64,000 nt of DNA from Haladaptatus paucihalophilus DX253 (lineage in GTDB: Archaea > Halobacteriota > Halobacteria > Halobacteriales > Haladaptataceae). Each line of letters starts with the position of its first letter. Positions within the stretch are counted from its first letter, which is position 1. The position numbers and the translations under genes are program-made. The notes under the pieces were generated by a model. The model was not told where the DNA came from and made no database searches. It saw nothing but the letters and a program-made list of their open reading frames with translations. This document shows, in pieces, positions 27,493 to 33,560 of this stretch. The DNA lies in contig NZ_AQXI01000003.1 in assembly GCF_000376445.1 (NCBI RefSeq), forward strand, positions 257,450-321,449, read 5' to 3'.

Positions 27493-28146
27493 ATGAGTTC
27501 CGGCTGGCCACGATTTGCCGACTCCCCGCGCCAGTTCGTGCGCTATCTCCGCGAGCTAAAGAAACGGGGAAGCAACCTGCTTATCACCGGGGACGTGCCC
27601 GATACCGTCACCGCACGGGCGACCCAAACCCTGTTCGGGGAGGGCGACCGGCGTTACCGCGTTCTCGCACTCCTCGATACGACCAGCCGGATTCCCGACT
27701 CGCTCTCGGTGGCCGACGACCGTCTCTGGGTCGTCGAGCGAGCGGGGGAAAAGCGCTCGGCCAGGCCGAGCGCGTCGAGCGACGTGTCGGTGAGGGAAAC
27801 CGACGATATGGACGGGATTCGACGGGAAATCGGTGCCGCGGCCGATTTCTACGACGACGAGTTCGACGGACTCGACCCGGCCGAACTCCGCATCGGCGTC
27901 GATTTGGGCGTTCGAGACGACCGGGATTCGATACGGGAGTTCGTCGAAGGGACGGCCGAAATCGTCGCCGACCATCGCGGGATGGCCCATTACCACTTAC
28001 CCAAGCCGGACGATGACCCGCTCGTCGACGAGCTTTCGCCGCTGTTCGACGCCCGTATCGAACTCAGGCAGGTACCCGGACAGCCGCCCGAGCAGCGGTG
28101 GCACGTCCCGGCGTTCGATAAAACGACTATATGGGTGCGCTTGTAA
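27493..28146 (+). CDS. haloarchaeal DUF7504-type protein, probable P-loop-like fold
   Basis: 217 residues, acidic, soluble. The opening RELKKRGSNLLITGDVPDTV and the alternation RYRVLALLDTT / RLWVVERAG / RIGVDLG suggest a Rossmann/RecA-like alpha-beta fold without a proper Walker A lysine motif. The C-terminus MAHYHLPKPDDDPLVDELSPLFDARIELR resembles the end of haloarchaeal DUF7504 and DUF835-like proteins. It lies 15 nt upstream of the CHAT protease gene and is surely cotranscribed with it. A TATA-like GATATAA precedes the start. Function unknown. Confidence 0.7.
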   Translation: MSSGWPRFADSPRQFVRYLRELKKRGSNLLITGDVPDTVTARATQTLFGEGDRRYRVLALLDTTSRIPDSLSVADDRLWVVERAGEKRSARPSASSDVSVRETDDMDGIRREIGAAADFYDDEFDGLDPAELRIGVDLGVRDDRDSIREFVEGTAEIVADHRGMAHYHLPKPDDDPLVDELSPLFDARIELRQVPGQPPEQRWHVPAFDKTTIWVRL

Positions 28147-28161
28147 CCCGTCACCGTTTGA

Positions 28162-30201
28162 ATGGAGTTCGAAACGCTCACCCGACGGACCGGGCTCGAA
28201 ATCAGCGACCCAATTGAGAACACCCGGTTCGAACTGTACGTTCCCGCGCCGATAACCCCGGTACAGACGAGGACGGGCAGATTTTATTTTCCCGTCGACG
28301 CCGCCGTCGGATTCGAAACCGCGAGCGTCGAGATTCCGAAACTCGTCTCGCCGCTCGTCTGGACGCAATCCGGCGAGCTCGTCGCCGATAGCACGAGGAT
28401 AGACGGCAACGAGTTTCCGGCGGGCGACTACCTCCTCGAACTCAACAGCACGTCGATGAAGCTCTACCTCGCGTTCGAGAGTGGATTTCGACTCGAACGG
28501 GGGGAAACCGCGGTAACGGTTCGCTGTGAGGGAACGACGCGCATTCGCGTCGGCGCGCGCTCGCTTCACGAGCACCCGGCGGGGACGATAACCGTCACGG
28601 ACGAGGTACGCGATGTGATGCGCGCCGTCTCCCTGTTCGGGTCCGCGCTGAAGACGCTCTCGCCGGAGCGGTCGTTCCCCACCTTGCGCGGACATCCGCC
28701 GCTCATCGAACGCGGGGAGACGTTCTCGGTTCCGGGCGAAATCGAGCCGCCGGAAACGGACGTGACGCTCGTCCTGCCGCCGGAGCGAACGCGGGTGTAC
28801 ACCGCGTCGTCGCTGGCCTACTATCTCGGTGCGGAAATCATCGCGGGGGACGAACCACGGCTCATCGCTGGGAATTTCGAGCAGTCGCTCGACGGACCGG
28901 ACGGCTACGAGGCGACGGTCAATTCGATACTCCGACGAACGTTTTTCTTCGACTGTCTCGCCCGGACGGAGGGCTTCTACGATGTCGAGCTGTACGAGCG
29001 AAAACGGGTTGAGTCGAGGATGGACGTCGATCTCGAGTCGTTGTACGACGCGCCGCTCGCCGACCGGGTGGAGAGGGCGCTTTCGCTGCCGTTCGAACGG
29101 GTCGAATCGGTAGCGATGGACTGGAATCTGACGACGGATATCGTGCCGACGAAGGCGAACGTCGAAGCGCTTCCGTTCGTCGCGTACGACCTTTCGTTCT
29201 GTCGAACACCGTCGAATCCGACGGAAAGGAACGTCACCGAACCTCCCAAAGCGTTCGACGACTTTGCCAGGAATGCGAGCGACTGGCGGTGGGACGACGA
29301 CGACTTCTTTCAGGTGGCGTCCGCACCGACTGCGGAACACGCGTGGATAGGGAACGGCTATCCCCTGGGGGTGAACAAACTCACGCTCGAATCGCTGTAC
29401 CGACGTCTCGACAGACCCGACCCCGACGACTCGACGCTAACCGTTCACGTCGTCTGCAACGACGAGACGATGGAGGACGAAAAGGACGTAGCGGAACAAT
29501 ACGGCGTCCGGGATTTCGTCGAATCGAACGTATCAGTACACCATCAATTGGCTGGCGACGAGTTGTCCGAACTGCTCTCCCTGCCGTCGGATTTCGTCCA
29601 CTTCATCGGCCACGTGGATTCGGACGGCTTTCGGTGCCCGGACGGGCATCTCGATGCCGAATCGCTGTCGAGCGTCGAGACGAACGCGTTCCTGCTCAAC
29701 GCCTGTCGCTCGTACGAACAGGGTACCGCGCTGATAGAAAAGGGAAGTCAGGGCGGCGTCGTCACGATGTCGCCCGTGCTCAACTCCGCCGCGACGCGGG
29801 TCGGGAAGGCGCTCGCCCGGTTGCTCAACGCGGGATTCCCGCTTCGGGTGGCGCTCGAAATCGCACGAACGCAACTGGTAGATAGGCATCGCTACCTCGT
29901 CGTCGGCGACGGGGCGTTGACCCTGTGTCAGAGCGAAAGCGGACAGCCGATTCGCTTGGACGTGGAACCGAACGGGGACGGTTACGTCGTCACTCCAGTC
30001 GCGTATCCGACGCAAACCTACGGTCTCGGAACGGTTCTCTCGCCGATGTTCGACGAACAGAGATACATCGGGTCGGGAACGGTTCGGGCGTTCGAGTTAT
30101 CGGCTGACGAACTCGATGCCGCGCTCGGCGCGGAGGTGATGCCGGTCGAAGCGAACGGTACGCTCCACTGGAGCGACGAGCTATCGACGTCGGACCTGTA
30201 A
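28162..30201 (+). CDS. CHAT-domain (caspase-like) cysteine protease
   Basis: 679 residues. The C-terminal part carries the caspase-like dyad: His484 in FVHFIGHVDSDG and Cys515 in LLNACRSYEQG, 31 residues apart, with GGVVTMSPVLN and GKALARLLNAGFPLRVALE after it, as in CHAT domains. Residues 1-400 form a haloarchaeal N-terminal region (beta-rich, ELYVPAPITPVQTRTGRFYFP) of unknown role, perhaps the sensor or substrate binder. No signal peptide. The 15-nt gap to the preceding gene suggests one operon. CHAT proteins elsewhere execute regulated proteolysis or abortive infection; its trigger and substrate are unknown. Confidence 0.85.
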   Translation: MEFETLTRRTGLEISDPIENTRFELYVPAPITPVQTRTGRFYFPVDAAVGFETASVEIPKLVSPLVWTQSGELVADSTRIDGNEFPAGDYLLELNSTSMKLYLAFESGFRLERGETAVTVRCEGTTRIRVGARSLHEHPAGTITVTDEVRDVMRAVSLFGSALKTLSPERSFPTLRGHPPLIERGETFSVPGEIEPPETDVTLVLPPERTRVYTASSLAYYLGAEIIAGDEPRLIAGNFEQSLDGPDGYEATVNSILRRTFFFDCLARTEGFYDVELYERKRVESRMDVDLESLYDAPLADRVERALSLPFERVESVAMDWNLTTDIVPTKANVEALPFVAYDLSFCRTPSNPTERNVTEPPKAFDDFARNASDWRWDDDDFFQVASAPTAEHAWIGNGYPLGVNKLTLESLYRRLDRPDPDDSTLTVHVVCNDETMEDEKDVAEQYGVRDFVESNVSVHHQLAGDELSELLSLPSDFVHFIGHVDSDGFRCPDGHLDAESLSSVETNAFLLNACRSYEQGTALIEKGSQGGVVTMSPVLNSAATRVGKALARLLNAGFPLRVALEIARTQLVDRHRYLVVGDGALTLCQSESGQPIRLDVEPNGDGYVVTPVAYPTQTYGLGTVLSPMFDEQRYIGSGTVRAFELSADELDAALGAEVMPVEANGTLHWSDELSTSDL

Positions 30202-30211
30202 GCGACGTCGC

Positions 30212-30346
30212 TCAGGGACCGGGACTGATGTCCGCGAAGTTCGCGGCGACACACTGTACTTGGAGCAAAATGAGGGTCGCAGCGAACAGGACACCGAGCA
30301 ATCGGGGGTTCGATTTGACGCGCTCCGATAGCGAATTTATTTTCAT
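30212..30346 (-). CDS. 44-residue single-span membrane peptide (DUF7503-like)
   Basis: ATG at 30346 opens MKINSLSERVKSNPRLLGVL, continues through a hydrophobic stretch (FAATLILLQVQCVAAN) and ends FADISPGP. A short basic N-terminus, the NPRLLGVLF motif, one membrane span and the terminal Gly-Pro match a family of tiny haloarchaeal proteins (DUF7503-type, from memory). AT-rich sequence lies upstream of the start. It is on the opposite strand, 10 nt after the CHAT gene, and faces away from the regulator at 30499. Function unknown. Confidence 0.65.
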   Translation of the reverse strand: MKINSLSERVKSNPRLLGVLFAATLILLQVQCVAANFADISPGP

Positions 30347-30498
30347 GCAATATTATATCCGAGAATAAAGCACTTAATAGTTACTGAAGCTAACAGACAG
30401 AAGAGGGAGCGAGTCCGGGGAACCATCACCGACCGTGGACCCGTACGACAGCGGGAAAATCTAGCGGTTTTAACGGGTAACGCGCGAACGAATCCGCT

Positions 30499-31233
30499 AT
30501 GCAGTCCATCGACGAGGTACATATCGCTCCGCTCGGATTCGAGTACGACCGAATCTTGGGTCCCGTGAAGCAACACGGGGTAGACATCCTCTATCTCCTC
30601 GAACACGATAGTCCGGGAAGTCCCGACTATCACGACGCGTTGAAGGAGGAACTCGACGCGGAAGGTATCGAGGTTCGGTCGCGGACGGTCGATCTGATGG
30701 ACATCTACGACGTTCTGGGAATCGTCACGACGCTCGTCTCCGAACACGAGGACGACATCGTTCGGGTGAACGTCGCGAGCGGGTCGAAGCTCTCGGCGGT
30801 CGGCGCGGCCATCGCCTGCATGGCGACCGATGCGACGGCGTACTACGTCCACCCCGAAGGCTACGCGTACGCGGACCGAAACGAACGCCAGAGTTACGGA
30901 TACGTCGGCGAGGAGGTGCTACCGACCTACCCCATCGAATCGCCGACGCACGACCAAGTGTCCGTCATGCACTACCTCGAAGAGGCGAACACGGACGTGT
31001 ACACCCCGAAGAAAAAGGACCTCATCAGCTACGCCGAGGACGAAGAGTTGTCGTTCATCGCCGACAGTAACCCGGCGAACGACAAGGCGAAGTTCGCCCT
31101 GCTGAACGCGAACATCGTCGACCCGCTGGAACGCGACGGCTACATCGAAGTTAGAAAGGTCGGACGGCAAAAGCAGGTGACGCTGACCGAAACCGGCCAC
31201 GACGTGCTGCGTGCGTTCCGACACAAACTGTAA
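30499..31233 (+). CDS. HFX_2341-type (DUF6293) regulator: CARF-like domain plus winged helix
   Basis: 244 residues. Residues 1-150 form a Rossmann-like domain (VHIAPLGFEYDRILGPV, ILYLLEHD, IVRVNVASGSKLSAVGAAIACM), with the NVASGSK loop where CARF domains bind cyclic oligoadenylate. The C-terminus is a winged-helix region with FALLNANIVDPLERDGYIEVRK and RQKQVTLTETGHDVLRAF. Architecture resembles Csa3 regulators, although no CRISPR or cas gene is in the window. It is probably a ligand-responsive transcription factor; whether it controls the adjacent CHAT operon is unknown. Confidence 0.83.
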   Translation: MQSIDEVHIAPLGFEYDRILGPVKQHGVDILYLLEHDSPGSPDYHDALKEELDAEGIEVRSRTVDLMDIYDVLGIVTTLVSEHEDDIVRVNVASGSKLSAVGAAIACMATDATAYYVHPEGYAYADRNERQSYGYVGEEVLPTYPIESPTHDQVSVMHYLEEANTDVYTPKKKDLISYAEDEELSFIADSNPANDKAKFALLNANIVDPLERDGYIEVRKVGRQKQVTLTETGHDVLRAFRHKL

Positions 31234-31711: not shown

Positions 31712-32092
31712 TTAGCGGTTCATGCGGATGTATTCCATCAGACCGCGTATCGTCGCCTGCAAGTCCGCCTTATCGACCGGCTTTTCGAGGATGGTCTGTG
31801 CACCTCGGCTGACCGCCTTTTGGCGCATCGCGGGCGGAATCTGTGCCGCGAGGACGAGCATGGGAATGTCGCGGTCGTTGAGTTGTTCACAGCGCTTCCA
31901 GATGTCCTCGGTGAAGCCGTCCACGTCCAAAACGGCGAGGGCAACGTCGTCACGCTGTTCGAGCAGGGCGTCGAACTCGTCCATGCTGGTCGCGATTTCG
32001 ACGTCGTAGCCGCCGTTTTTGAGGAGGTCGGCGAGGAGTTCGAGGTTTCGCTCCCGTTTTCCCAGCGCGAGGATGAGGGCCGCCTCACTCAT
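31712..32092 (-). CDS. single-domain response-regulator-like protein
   Basis: 126 residues forming one receiver domain: ALILALGKRERNLELLADLLK (beta1-alpha1), AVLDVDGF with the phospho-acceptor-like Asp, MLVLAAQ, and LEKPVDKADLQATIRGL (Lys-Pro near the end). The acidic pocket after beta1 is not the usual DD pair (it reads ALGKRERN), so phosphorylation is doubtful. Its start codon lies inside the 3' end of the upstream kaiC-like gene (8-nt overlap), so the two are translationally coupled and probably work together. Confidence 0.82.
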   Translation of the reverse strand: MSEAALILALGKRERNLELLADLLKNGGYDVEIATSMDEFDALLEQRDDVALAVLDVDGFTEDIWKRCEQLNDRDIPMLVLAAQIPPAMRQKAVSRGAQTILEKPVDKADLQATIRGLMEYIRMNR

Positions 32093-33560
32093 TGGCCGAC
32101 TCCGAACGTTCCCGTGCCAACTCAGGAGAGCCGGAGAGAACGCCGCTGAGTTCGGTCAGCGGTTCGCCGACTTTGAGACCGTGTTCCGTGATCTGGAACT
32201 CGCGGAGCATCCGTTCGAAGTCGCTGGTTCGTTTTTTCAGCACGCCGATGGCCTTGCGCATCTCGCCGGAAACTTCGAGATGCCGGAGGAAAACGATATT
32301 GTCGGCGAGATAGCTGATTCCCGCCTCCGTCGCCTGAAACTCGCCGGTTACGGTGTCGATTTCGTCCACCAGAATGACGGTGATACCCATGTTCTTCAGA
32401 TAGCGACAGAGGGTGTGGAGTTTGCGGACCAGTACGCGGTCGTCGTCGTCACGGAGCGACAGTTTGTAGCCGTCGATACCGTCTATCATGACGATACTGG
32501 TGTCGTTCTCCTCGACGTCCGTTCGAACACGGTGGGCGAACTCGGTCGCCGAGCAGTCGAGGGGTTTCATCTCCTCGACGGAGAGCGACCCCTGTTCTTC
32601 CATCCGCCGAACCGGGATGTTGATGTTCTCGCTCCGTTCGCGGAACGTCTCCAGCGTCTCCTCGAACATGTACATGACGGAGCGTTCTCCCCGCCCGGCG
32701 GCCTCCTTCATGAACTGCGTTCCGACGGTCGTCTTCCCGACGCCGGTCGGACCGCTGAGGATGGTGATGGTGCCGCGCTCGAAGCCGCCGTGGAGGAGTT
32801 GGTTAACCTCTGGGACGCCGGAGGAGATGGATTCCAACTCGAACTCCCCGGAGTGATTTGCGGGGTTCAGTTCGGGAAACACCGCGATACCCCCGTCCGT
32901 AATGCGCATCGCGTGGTTGCCCTCGTTGACCGACGACCCGCGGAACTTCGGCACGCTGATGGTGCGACCGTACGCGGAGTGTTCGAGTTCGATAGTGCCG
33001 TCTGTCATGTACTGCAGGTCGTCGTCGGACGACTCGTCGCTGTGTTGGGACGTGAACAGGACCGTCGCACCCTGCTCTTTCAGGTAGTGCATGAACGCGA
33101 TGACCTGCTTTCGGAACTGGTACTCGTCGGACGTGAGATGGCGAAGACGAGTGAGCGGGTCGATGAACACCCGGTCCGGGTCGATGGATTCGACACGCTC
33201 GGTTATCGCCTGCGTGAGCGGTTCCTGTTCGACCTCGCTCGGCGTGAAGATGTCGTAGGATTGCTCGTCCACGAACACGTCCGAATCCGGGCTCAAATCG
33301 AGAAAGTGAACGTTCGAAAGGTCGATATCAAGCGTCGAAGCGTTGTCGCGGATGTCGTCTTCTGACTCCTCGAGATTGACGAACAACACCGTCTCGTCCG
33401 ACTCGACACCGGCGGTGAGATACTTCATCCCGAGAATCGTCTTCCCCGTCCCCGGGTCGCCACGAAGGAGATAGCTTCGTTCCGCGATAAACCCCCCGCG
33501 TAGAATCTCGTCGAGACCCGGTGTTCCGGTCGATATTTTTGTCAGATTTGAATCACTCAT
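32085..33560 (-). CDS. KaiC-like RecA-superfamily ATPase, two domains
   Basis: 491 residues, two KaiC domains in tandem. Domain 1 has Walker A GDPGTGKTILG (about 33-42), catalytic Glu pair NLEESED and Walker B RVFIDPLTRL. Domain 2 has GPTGVGKTTVG (about 269), MFEETLETF and IVMIDGIDGYKL. The PGLDEILRGGF and VPEVNQLLHGGF starts are family hallmarks. Archaeal KaiC-like proteins act in signal transduction rather than in a full clock; no KaiA or KaiB is near. A TATA-like ATATTTATAG lies about 20 nt upstream. Cotranscribed with the receiver protein. Confidence 0.9.
   Translation of the reverse strand: MSDSNLTKISTGTPGLDEILRGGFIAERSYLLRGDPGTGKTILGMKYLTAGVESDETVLFVNLEESEDDIRDNASTLDIDLSNVHFLDLSPDSDVFVDEQSYDIFTPSEVEQEPLTQAITERVESIDPDRVFIDPLTRLRHLTSDEYQFRKQVIAFMHYLKEQGATVLFTSQHSDESSDDDLQYMTDGTIELEHSAYGRTISVPKFRGSSVNEGNHAMRITDGGIAVFPELNPANHSGEFELESISSGVPEVNQLLHGGFERGTITILSGPTGVGKTTVGTQFMKEAAGRGERSVMYMFEETLETFRERSENINIPVRRMEEQGSLSVEEMKPLDCSATEFAHRVRTDVEENDTSIVMIDGIDGYKLSLRDDDDRVLVRKLHTLCRYLKNMGITVILVDEIDTVTGEFQATEAGISYLADNIVFLRHLEVSGEMRKAIGVLKKRTSDFERMLREFQITEHGLKVGEPLTELSGVLSGSPELARERSESANE

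Follow-up and report, generated by a model that had tools for sequence, protein, structure and literature searches.

A CHAT protease gene and a convergent DUF7503 mini-gene as a putative peptide-receptor pair of haloarchaea

Organization of the locus

The window, a stretch of 64,000 nucleotides from Haladaptatus paucihalophilus DX253 (contig NZ_AQXI01000003.1), carries a DUF7504 gene, a CHAT protease gene on the same strand and, opposite to both, a mini-gene for a DUF7503 peptide precursor (Table 1). The DUF7503 and DUF7504 matches lie above the Pfam cut-off (55.6 and 145 vs 27 bits each), and the CHAT profile (PF12770) scores 14 bits, under its cut-off of 24 bits, as a divergent subfamily. 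A sequence-only reading of this DNA had already described the CHAT gene with its His484/Cys515 dyad, and both residues are indeed present in the open reading frame 28162-30201(+). The spacings that it gave are also exact: the CHAT start lies 15 nt past the stop of the DUF7504 frame, and 10 nt separate the CHAT stop codon from that of the tiny antisense gene, a 44-residue DUF7503 frame. Its term "membrane peptide" overlooks the signal-peptide-like layout. The observation is thus correct, yet understated. In the annotated records examined, the CHAT genes are listed as hypothetical, caspase family or CHAT-domain, and the small genes are hypothetical or unannotated; a literature search on DUF7504 and CHAT in haloarchaea returned nothing.

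Table 1. Features of the CHAT/DUF7503 locus (window coordinates)
Feature	Position	Strand	Basis or remark
DUF7504 gene	27493..28146	+	217 aa; Pfam PF24336, 145 bits, 3.9e-42
CHAT protease gene, proposed peptide receptor/effector	28162..30201	+	679 aa; predicted fold and dyad
Catalytic His484 codon	29611..29613	+	Invariant alignment column
Catalytic Cys515 codon	29704..29706	+	Invariant alignment column
CHAT C-terminal domain, residues 590-679	29929..30198	+	Hypervariable among close orthologues; co-divergence with core
DUF7503 peptide precursor MKINSLSERVKSNPRLLGVLFAATLILLQVQCVAANFADISPGP	30212..30346	-	44 aa; Pfam PF24335, 55.6 bits, 3.9e-15
Predicted core NFADISPGP, last 9 residues, after AxA-like site, GP end	30215..30241	-	Homologue conservation
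Leader: NPR motif, hydrophobic segment, AxA-like c-region	30242..30346	-	Charge distribution in homologues
Inferred specificity cassette: CHAT C-terminal domain, intergenic and peptide core	29929..30241	.	Nucleotide identity profile, Haloarcula
TATA-like TTTATT, upstream of peptide ATG	30364..30369	-	Sequence; AT-rich element in homologues

Directly downstream (30499-31233) lies a gene for a CARF-type HFX_2341-like protein (PADLOC CARF3, 1.7e-98), which was rejected as a partner since it does not recur beside other CHAT loci; the upstream DUF58/DUF7519 genes were set aside on the same ground. In the clustering of flanking genes, DUF7504 aside, no conserved neighbour family stands out, and no AgrB, AgrC or AgrA components are found. 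Farther along (31712-33560), a response-regulator gene is located beside a two-domain KaiC-type ATPase.

The CHAT protein and its relatives

The AlphaFold2 model of the CHAT protein (pLDDT 87.8) combines a beta-rich part with a caspase fold and contains no helical repeat array of the TPR type. Compared with known structures (VIA), it matches gingipain RgpB with Z 21.0 (rmsd 2.6, 239 residues), and also SAVED-CHAT (Z 18.8), separase (17.5) and the Craspase TPR-CHAT (about 14); a search of solved structures with the full-length sequence gives no match. An alignment of 230 CHAT homologues shows no substitution at H480, H484, N513, C515 and S517, and the invariance of H484 and C515 indicates strong constraint on the protease. 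Dyad and fold point to a caspase-like enzyme with predicted proteolytic activity. Neither a SAVED nor a TPR sensor is found in the protein, the N-terminal region being its own, and sequence analysis reveals neither a signal nor a transmembrane segment.

The source genome encodes 10 CHAT proteins (nine paralogues in addition to the locus copy) together with 16 DUF7504 and 6 DUF7503 copies, and CHAT homologues occur in 51 of 59 relatives, with up to about 22 per genome. About 50 of the 255 CHATs on the tree are without a recognised peptide. One array (L086; G001, C28) has three tandem CHAT genes behind one DUF7504 and no recognised peptide, and a peptide-less CHAT clade (L082, L240, L256, L023) resembles it. 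Outside Halobacteria, four genomes of family f25 have CHAT homologues (L306-L309); these lie within or close to a conserved group of small genes, and none of the homologues is accompanied by a GP peptide.

Linkage and spread in haloarchaea

Across the same 292 haloarchaeal genomes, CHAT is present in 271 and DUF7503 in 250, and DUF7503 is missing from every CHAT-less genome listed. Among loci chosen by DUF7503, 95 of the 96 DUF7503 copies stand tail-to-tail with a CHAT gene within 300 nt, with stop-to-stop gaps mostly between -4 and +20 nt. The sequence-only reading had proposed tabulating the conservation of the gene set, and had named absence of linkage to either neighbour as the result that would speak against it; CHAT neighbours DUF7503 in the proportion just given and DUF7504 in 81 of 155 loci, so that the genes are clearly not unlinked.

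The upstream gene, which that reading had paired with the CHAT gene, is often a neighbour, though not always: the latter count covers CHAT and peptide loci with enough flanking sequence, and it identifies DUF7504 as accessory and not obligatory. The AlphaFold2 model of DUF7504 (pLDDT 88.6) has a KaiC-type RecA fold (Foldseek, KaiC, E 5e-7); despite this match, a Walker A motif (GxxxxGK[ST]) occurs in 0 of 105 CHAT-linked DUF7504 copies. Nine further DUF7504 genes of the source genome (L069-L077) are without CHAT neighbours.

As for the function once suggested, a proteolytic signalling or defence module, the signalling half fits and the defence half is unsupported. None of the three proteins matches a PADLOC profile and no CHAT relative is present in the viral and phage collections, on which grounds a defence role and a viral origin were set aside; the near-universal presence in haloarchaea likewise lends no support to defence.

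Anatomy of the peptide precursor

The 183 distinct DUF7503 homologues are mostly 41-48 residues long and share one layout: an (H/N)P(R/K) motif, a hydrophobic stretch, small residues and a variable 9-residue end. The C-terminus is Gly-Pro in 169 of the 183 (14 are without it), and Ala occupies position -10 in 135, as in a signal-peptidase-like AxA site. Lys and Arg are distributed very unevenly around the hydrophobic segment, with 386 in the N-flank vs 23 in the C-flank over the whole set, which predicts an N-in/C-out topology. The cores are short, uncharged and rich in Gly, Ser and Asn, and 172 distinct 7-residue versions are counted. The pN/pS ratio is highest in the core (0.40-0.55), lower in the hydrophobic leader (0.14-0.26) and close to zero at the GP end (0.00-0.04). 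In addition, an AT-rich promoter-like element lies at a constant distance from the peptide ATG. The number of homologues, the low leader and GP pN/pS and the fixed promoter-like element exclude a chance antisense frame. The layout is that of a secreted peptide-signal precursor, for which export and processing are predicted.

Two clades depart from the common form. One (L027, L028, L030, L032, L035, L246) has CxxC cores such as GCPTCTATGP, the cysteines of which may be modified or disulfide-forming; the other (L206, L255, L260, L261, L266, L267, L268, L084) has lost GP and ends in sequences of the GTIR/GTIG/GTIS type.

Multi-core and divergent precursors

In genus g56, all six genomes without a Pfam DUF7503 hit carry, at the same place, a leaderless tandem-core open reading frame. 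The number of units is 4 in L135, 5 in L269, 7 in L129 and L270, 10 in L271 and 13 in L133; the unit is of the DGN(G/S)(G/S)GISGP type (AGN in the first unit of L270), and the last one ends at the stop codon. In L133, the 13 cores differ from each other at many synonymous sites with zero amino-acid changes, and the linker alone varies (Y/F/S). An ordinary DUF7503 precursor, MSETDSGTVATYL..., is present in the sister species L146, and its N-terminus MSETDSGTV is shared with the multi-core frames (MS..DSGTV); most likely, then, the multi-core gene derives from a DUF7503 gene. Since the g56 precursors have no hydrophobic leader, export is not universal.

A Gly-Pro end also recurs beside the 71 CHATs that have no DUF7503 match: it terminates 22 of 73 convergent frames vs 0.5% of control frames, an excess whose p value (2e-33) ignores relatedness, and the frames in question have several unrelated leaders. 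Collectively, the multi-core genes and the GP ends behind unrelated leaders indicate that the short GP-ended peptide is the shared functional element. In a divergent CHAT subfamily (L045, L046, L285), the convergent frames end in AKR(I/V)STYGGP behind unrelated N-termini, possibly another class of peptide, marked by a dibasic site.

Co-divergence of the core and the CHAT C-terminal domain

In 83 independent pairs of related loci, the core has a mean divergence of 0.43, compared with 0.24 for CHAT and 0.21 for the leader. Once CHAT and leader divergence are controlled for, the divergence of the core follows that of the C-terminal region of CHAT alone, with a partial r of 0.55 at residues 601-630 (0 of 2000 permutations), and leader divergence does not track that region (r -0.1). 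Synonymous sites of CHAT 592-679 diverge in step with the core as well (r 0.3-0.42), which points to exchange of an adjacent DNA block as a source of part of the coupling; the amino-acid effect nevertheless persists under local synonymous control (r 0.45, p 2e-5). Among pairs with 75% or more identity over CHAT 1-580, the cores grow more alike, from 0.43 to 0.93 identity, as C-domain identity goes from below 0.5 to 0.8-0.9, and leader identity stays steady at 0.79-0.89. The pair L190/L110 is an extreme example: CHAT 1-580 is 89% identical, residues 590-679 30%, the leader 88% and the core 0%. By orthologue cluster, the correlation between core and C-domain is positive in 10 of 11, the CxxC-core clade giving -0.42. 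A global Mantel scan of CHAT regions against the core, which treats non-independent loci, yields weak partial correlations of up to 0.12, and the independent-pair design resolves this weak signal.

The same pattern is readily apparent within Haloarcula (genus g21, 15 species). Up to column 600 the CHAT proteins are 93% identical (median), beyond it 43%; at the nucleotide level, an identity of about 0.87 gives way to 0.33-0.66 across the C-domain, the intergenic stretch and the core, and the leader is back at 0.86-0.95. C-domain identity averages 0.78 in the 6 same-core pairs vs 0.44 in the 99 different-core pairs, the corresponding values for the N-part being 0.94 vs 0.88. With one outlier removed, the partial r between core and C-domain given the N-part is 0.57 (0 of 5000), and the r between core and N-part is 0.08. 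Species sharing NNSSYIGP, NNSTYIGP, NNSAYPGP or NNNIYIGP have C-domain types in common. The DX253 copy was compared with distant orthologues only (N-part at most 60% identical, C-domain 32-44%), and the co-divergence pattern consequently rests on relatives and not on this copy.

Hypervariable segments of a putative ligand and receptor that co-vary in this way are a pherotype pattern, with specificity groups, as judged from sequence comparison. The pattern also offers a reason for the conserved tail-to-tail layout, in which the matched segments of the putative ligand and receptor form one contiguous cassette. Predicted coupling between ligand and receptor is well supported by these comparisons.

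Proposed mechanism and alternative explanations

Beside the observed linkage, precursor anatomy, active-site conservation, fixed GP end, multi-core precursors and co-divergence of core and C-terminal domain stands a mechanism in which the locus is a cognate peptide-receptor pair; that a secreted peptide is read by a protease receptor is the most likely explanation, and a reasonably probable one. The peptide, with its variable C-terminal core, is better read as a cognate ligand than as a substrate or an inhibitor. Most likely, the secretion machinery would recognise the DUF7503 leader, and a cut near AxA would set free some 9 C-terminal residues with the Gly-Pro end. The peptide would then re-enter the cell. 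Here lies a point against the mechanism: CHAT is devoid of signal and transmembrane segments, so a secreted peptide would have to be taken up again, and the peptide/CHAT pair has no linked transporter. Inside, the C-terminal domain of CHAT (about 590-679) would recognise its own peptide by direct binding, which would switch the caspase-like protease so that it cleaves cell proteins, with DUF7504 as a putative accessory regulator at roughly every second locus. Every paralogue would be matched by a peptide of its own, and orthologues across species would form specificity groups, as bacterial pheromone loci do. The output may be density or kin sensing.

An unlikely alternative keeps the peptide inside the cell, where the GP-ended tail would inhibit the CHAT protease as a pseudo-substrate, or else activate it, the core and the C-domain co-evolving as inhibitor and target; it may be securin-like, given the separase-like CHAT fold, or membrane-tethered as a guard of membrane integrity. 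The leaderless multi-core precursors, the cis-linkage and the co-divergence would all be covered without export or import. However, the charge bias of 386 vs 23 places the tail outside, an AxA-like motif closes the leader, and hypervariability between closely related species fits signalling or self-recognition better than an inhibitor that acts within the cell.

It is improbable that the peptide is a secreted antagonist of the microhalocin kind, with CHAT as its cognate immunity or processing protease. The secreted-type precursor, the paired hypervariable specificity and the many paralogues per genome would suit such a role, but the genomes listed contain peptide-less CHATs and no CHAT-less peptide, the short, uncharged Gly/Ser/Asn-rich cores are not toxin-like, and no export cassette recurs beside the pair.

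Very improbable, in turn, is that peptide and protease do not interact at all, the core and the C-domain diverging together solely as neighbouring stretches of a hot spot of recombination or mutation. The tail-to-tail arrangement does make them contiguous, and the synonymous divergence of CHAT 592-679 follows the core; yet the signal peaks at CHAT 601-630, which is not the part closest to the peptide, the coupling survives the local synonymous control (r 0.45), the leader and promoter just past the core stay 86-95% identical, the GP end is fixed, and purifying selection keeps the core repeats within a precursor identical.

Very improbable as well is a scenario, suggested by the framing of the sequence-only reading, in which the peptide is a CHAT substrate turned into a membrane-acting effector, as in gasdermin-like suicide defence: CHAT and caspase-like proteases do act on adjacent substrates in known systems and the precursor is hydrophobic, but variability is located at the very C-terminal end, the hydrophobic part has been dropped and the core multiplied in one genus, no defence profile matches, and the system is near-universal in haloarchaea.

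Comparison with known systems

The closest functional analogues of the proposed ligand-receptor pair are the RRNPP/Alo/arbitrium systems and the agr-type pherotypes, and the locus is a member of neither, as it has no TPR receptor and no histidine kinase. In the RRNPP/Alo/arbitrium systems of Firmicutes and their phages, the precursor has a hydrophobic N-terminal signal and the mature peptide lies at its extreme C-terminus; Alo precursors are open reading frames of 32-50 residues adjoining the receptor gene, more than 25 paralogous pairs occur in some Paenibacillus, and orphan receptors and one leaderless precursor are known (PMC7425212). The haloarchaeal locus is similar in its short precursor beside the putative receptor gene and in its many paralogues, the sequence layout also fits a predicted N-terminal export signal and a predicted C-terminal mature peptide, and g56 is likewise leaderless. 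It differs in that the putative receptor is a CHAT protease with no TPR, the peptide gene is convergent, Gly-Pro is fixed and the host is archaeal.

In agr and comQXPA, a hypervariable ligand core and an adjoining hypervariable receptor region lie between conserved flanks and define specificity groups. The present locus has the same combination of hypervariable core and putative receptor segment, conserved flanks and specificity groups, whereas no histidine kinase and no modification or export enzyme is found, and a soluble protease is the putative receptor. With SAVED-CHAT, Craspase TPR-CHAT, separase and gingipain it shares the catalytic fold and the His/Cys dyad; unlike SAVED-CHAT and Craspase, it has an N-terminal region of its own in place of a SAVED or TPR sensor, a hypervariable C-terminal domain and a small-peptide partner.

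Among haloarchaeal cell-cell signals, the quorum-sensing "disk-forming signal" of Haloferax volcanii is small, survives autoclaving and proteinase K and is described as a small molecule (PMC12240190), in contrast to the gene-encoded peptide proposed here. The archaeal signals reported in the literature are AHL-like, AI-2-like or small molecules of unidentified chemistry. The papers searched describe no archaeal peptide signal that is encoded by a gene and paired with a receptor of its own, and we know of none.

The lock-and-key change of peptide and protease domain between species suggests archaeal peptide communication or self-recognition of an undescribed kind. The chances are about even that the full proposal holds, namely that most haloarchaea possess a gene-encoded system of peptide pheromones or self-recognition in which a genome has up to about 20 paralogous receptor genes, pherotypes exist at the species level, a caspase-like protease is the receptor, and the receptor domain and core are joined in one exchangeable tail-to-tail cassette. 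If so, peptide reception by a caspase-fold protease would be new, and cell-cell recognition would be tied to regulated proteolysis. As the system is present in most haloarchaea, including genetically tractable ones, mutual sensing in Archaea is directly testable with synthetic 9-mers.
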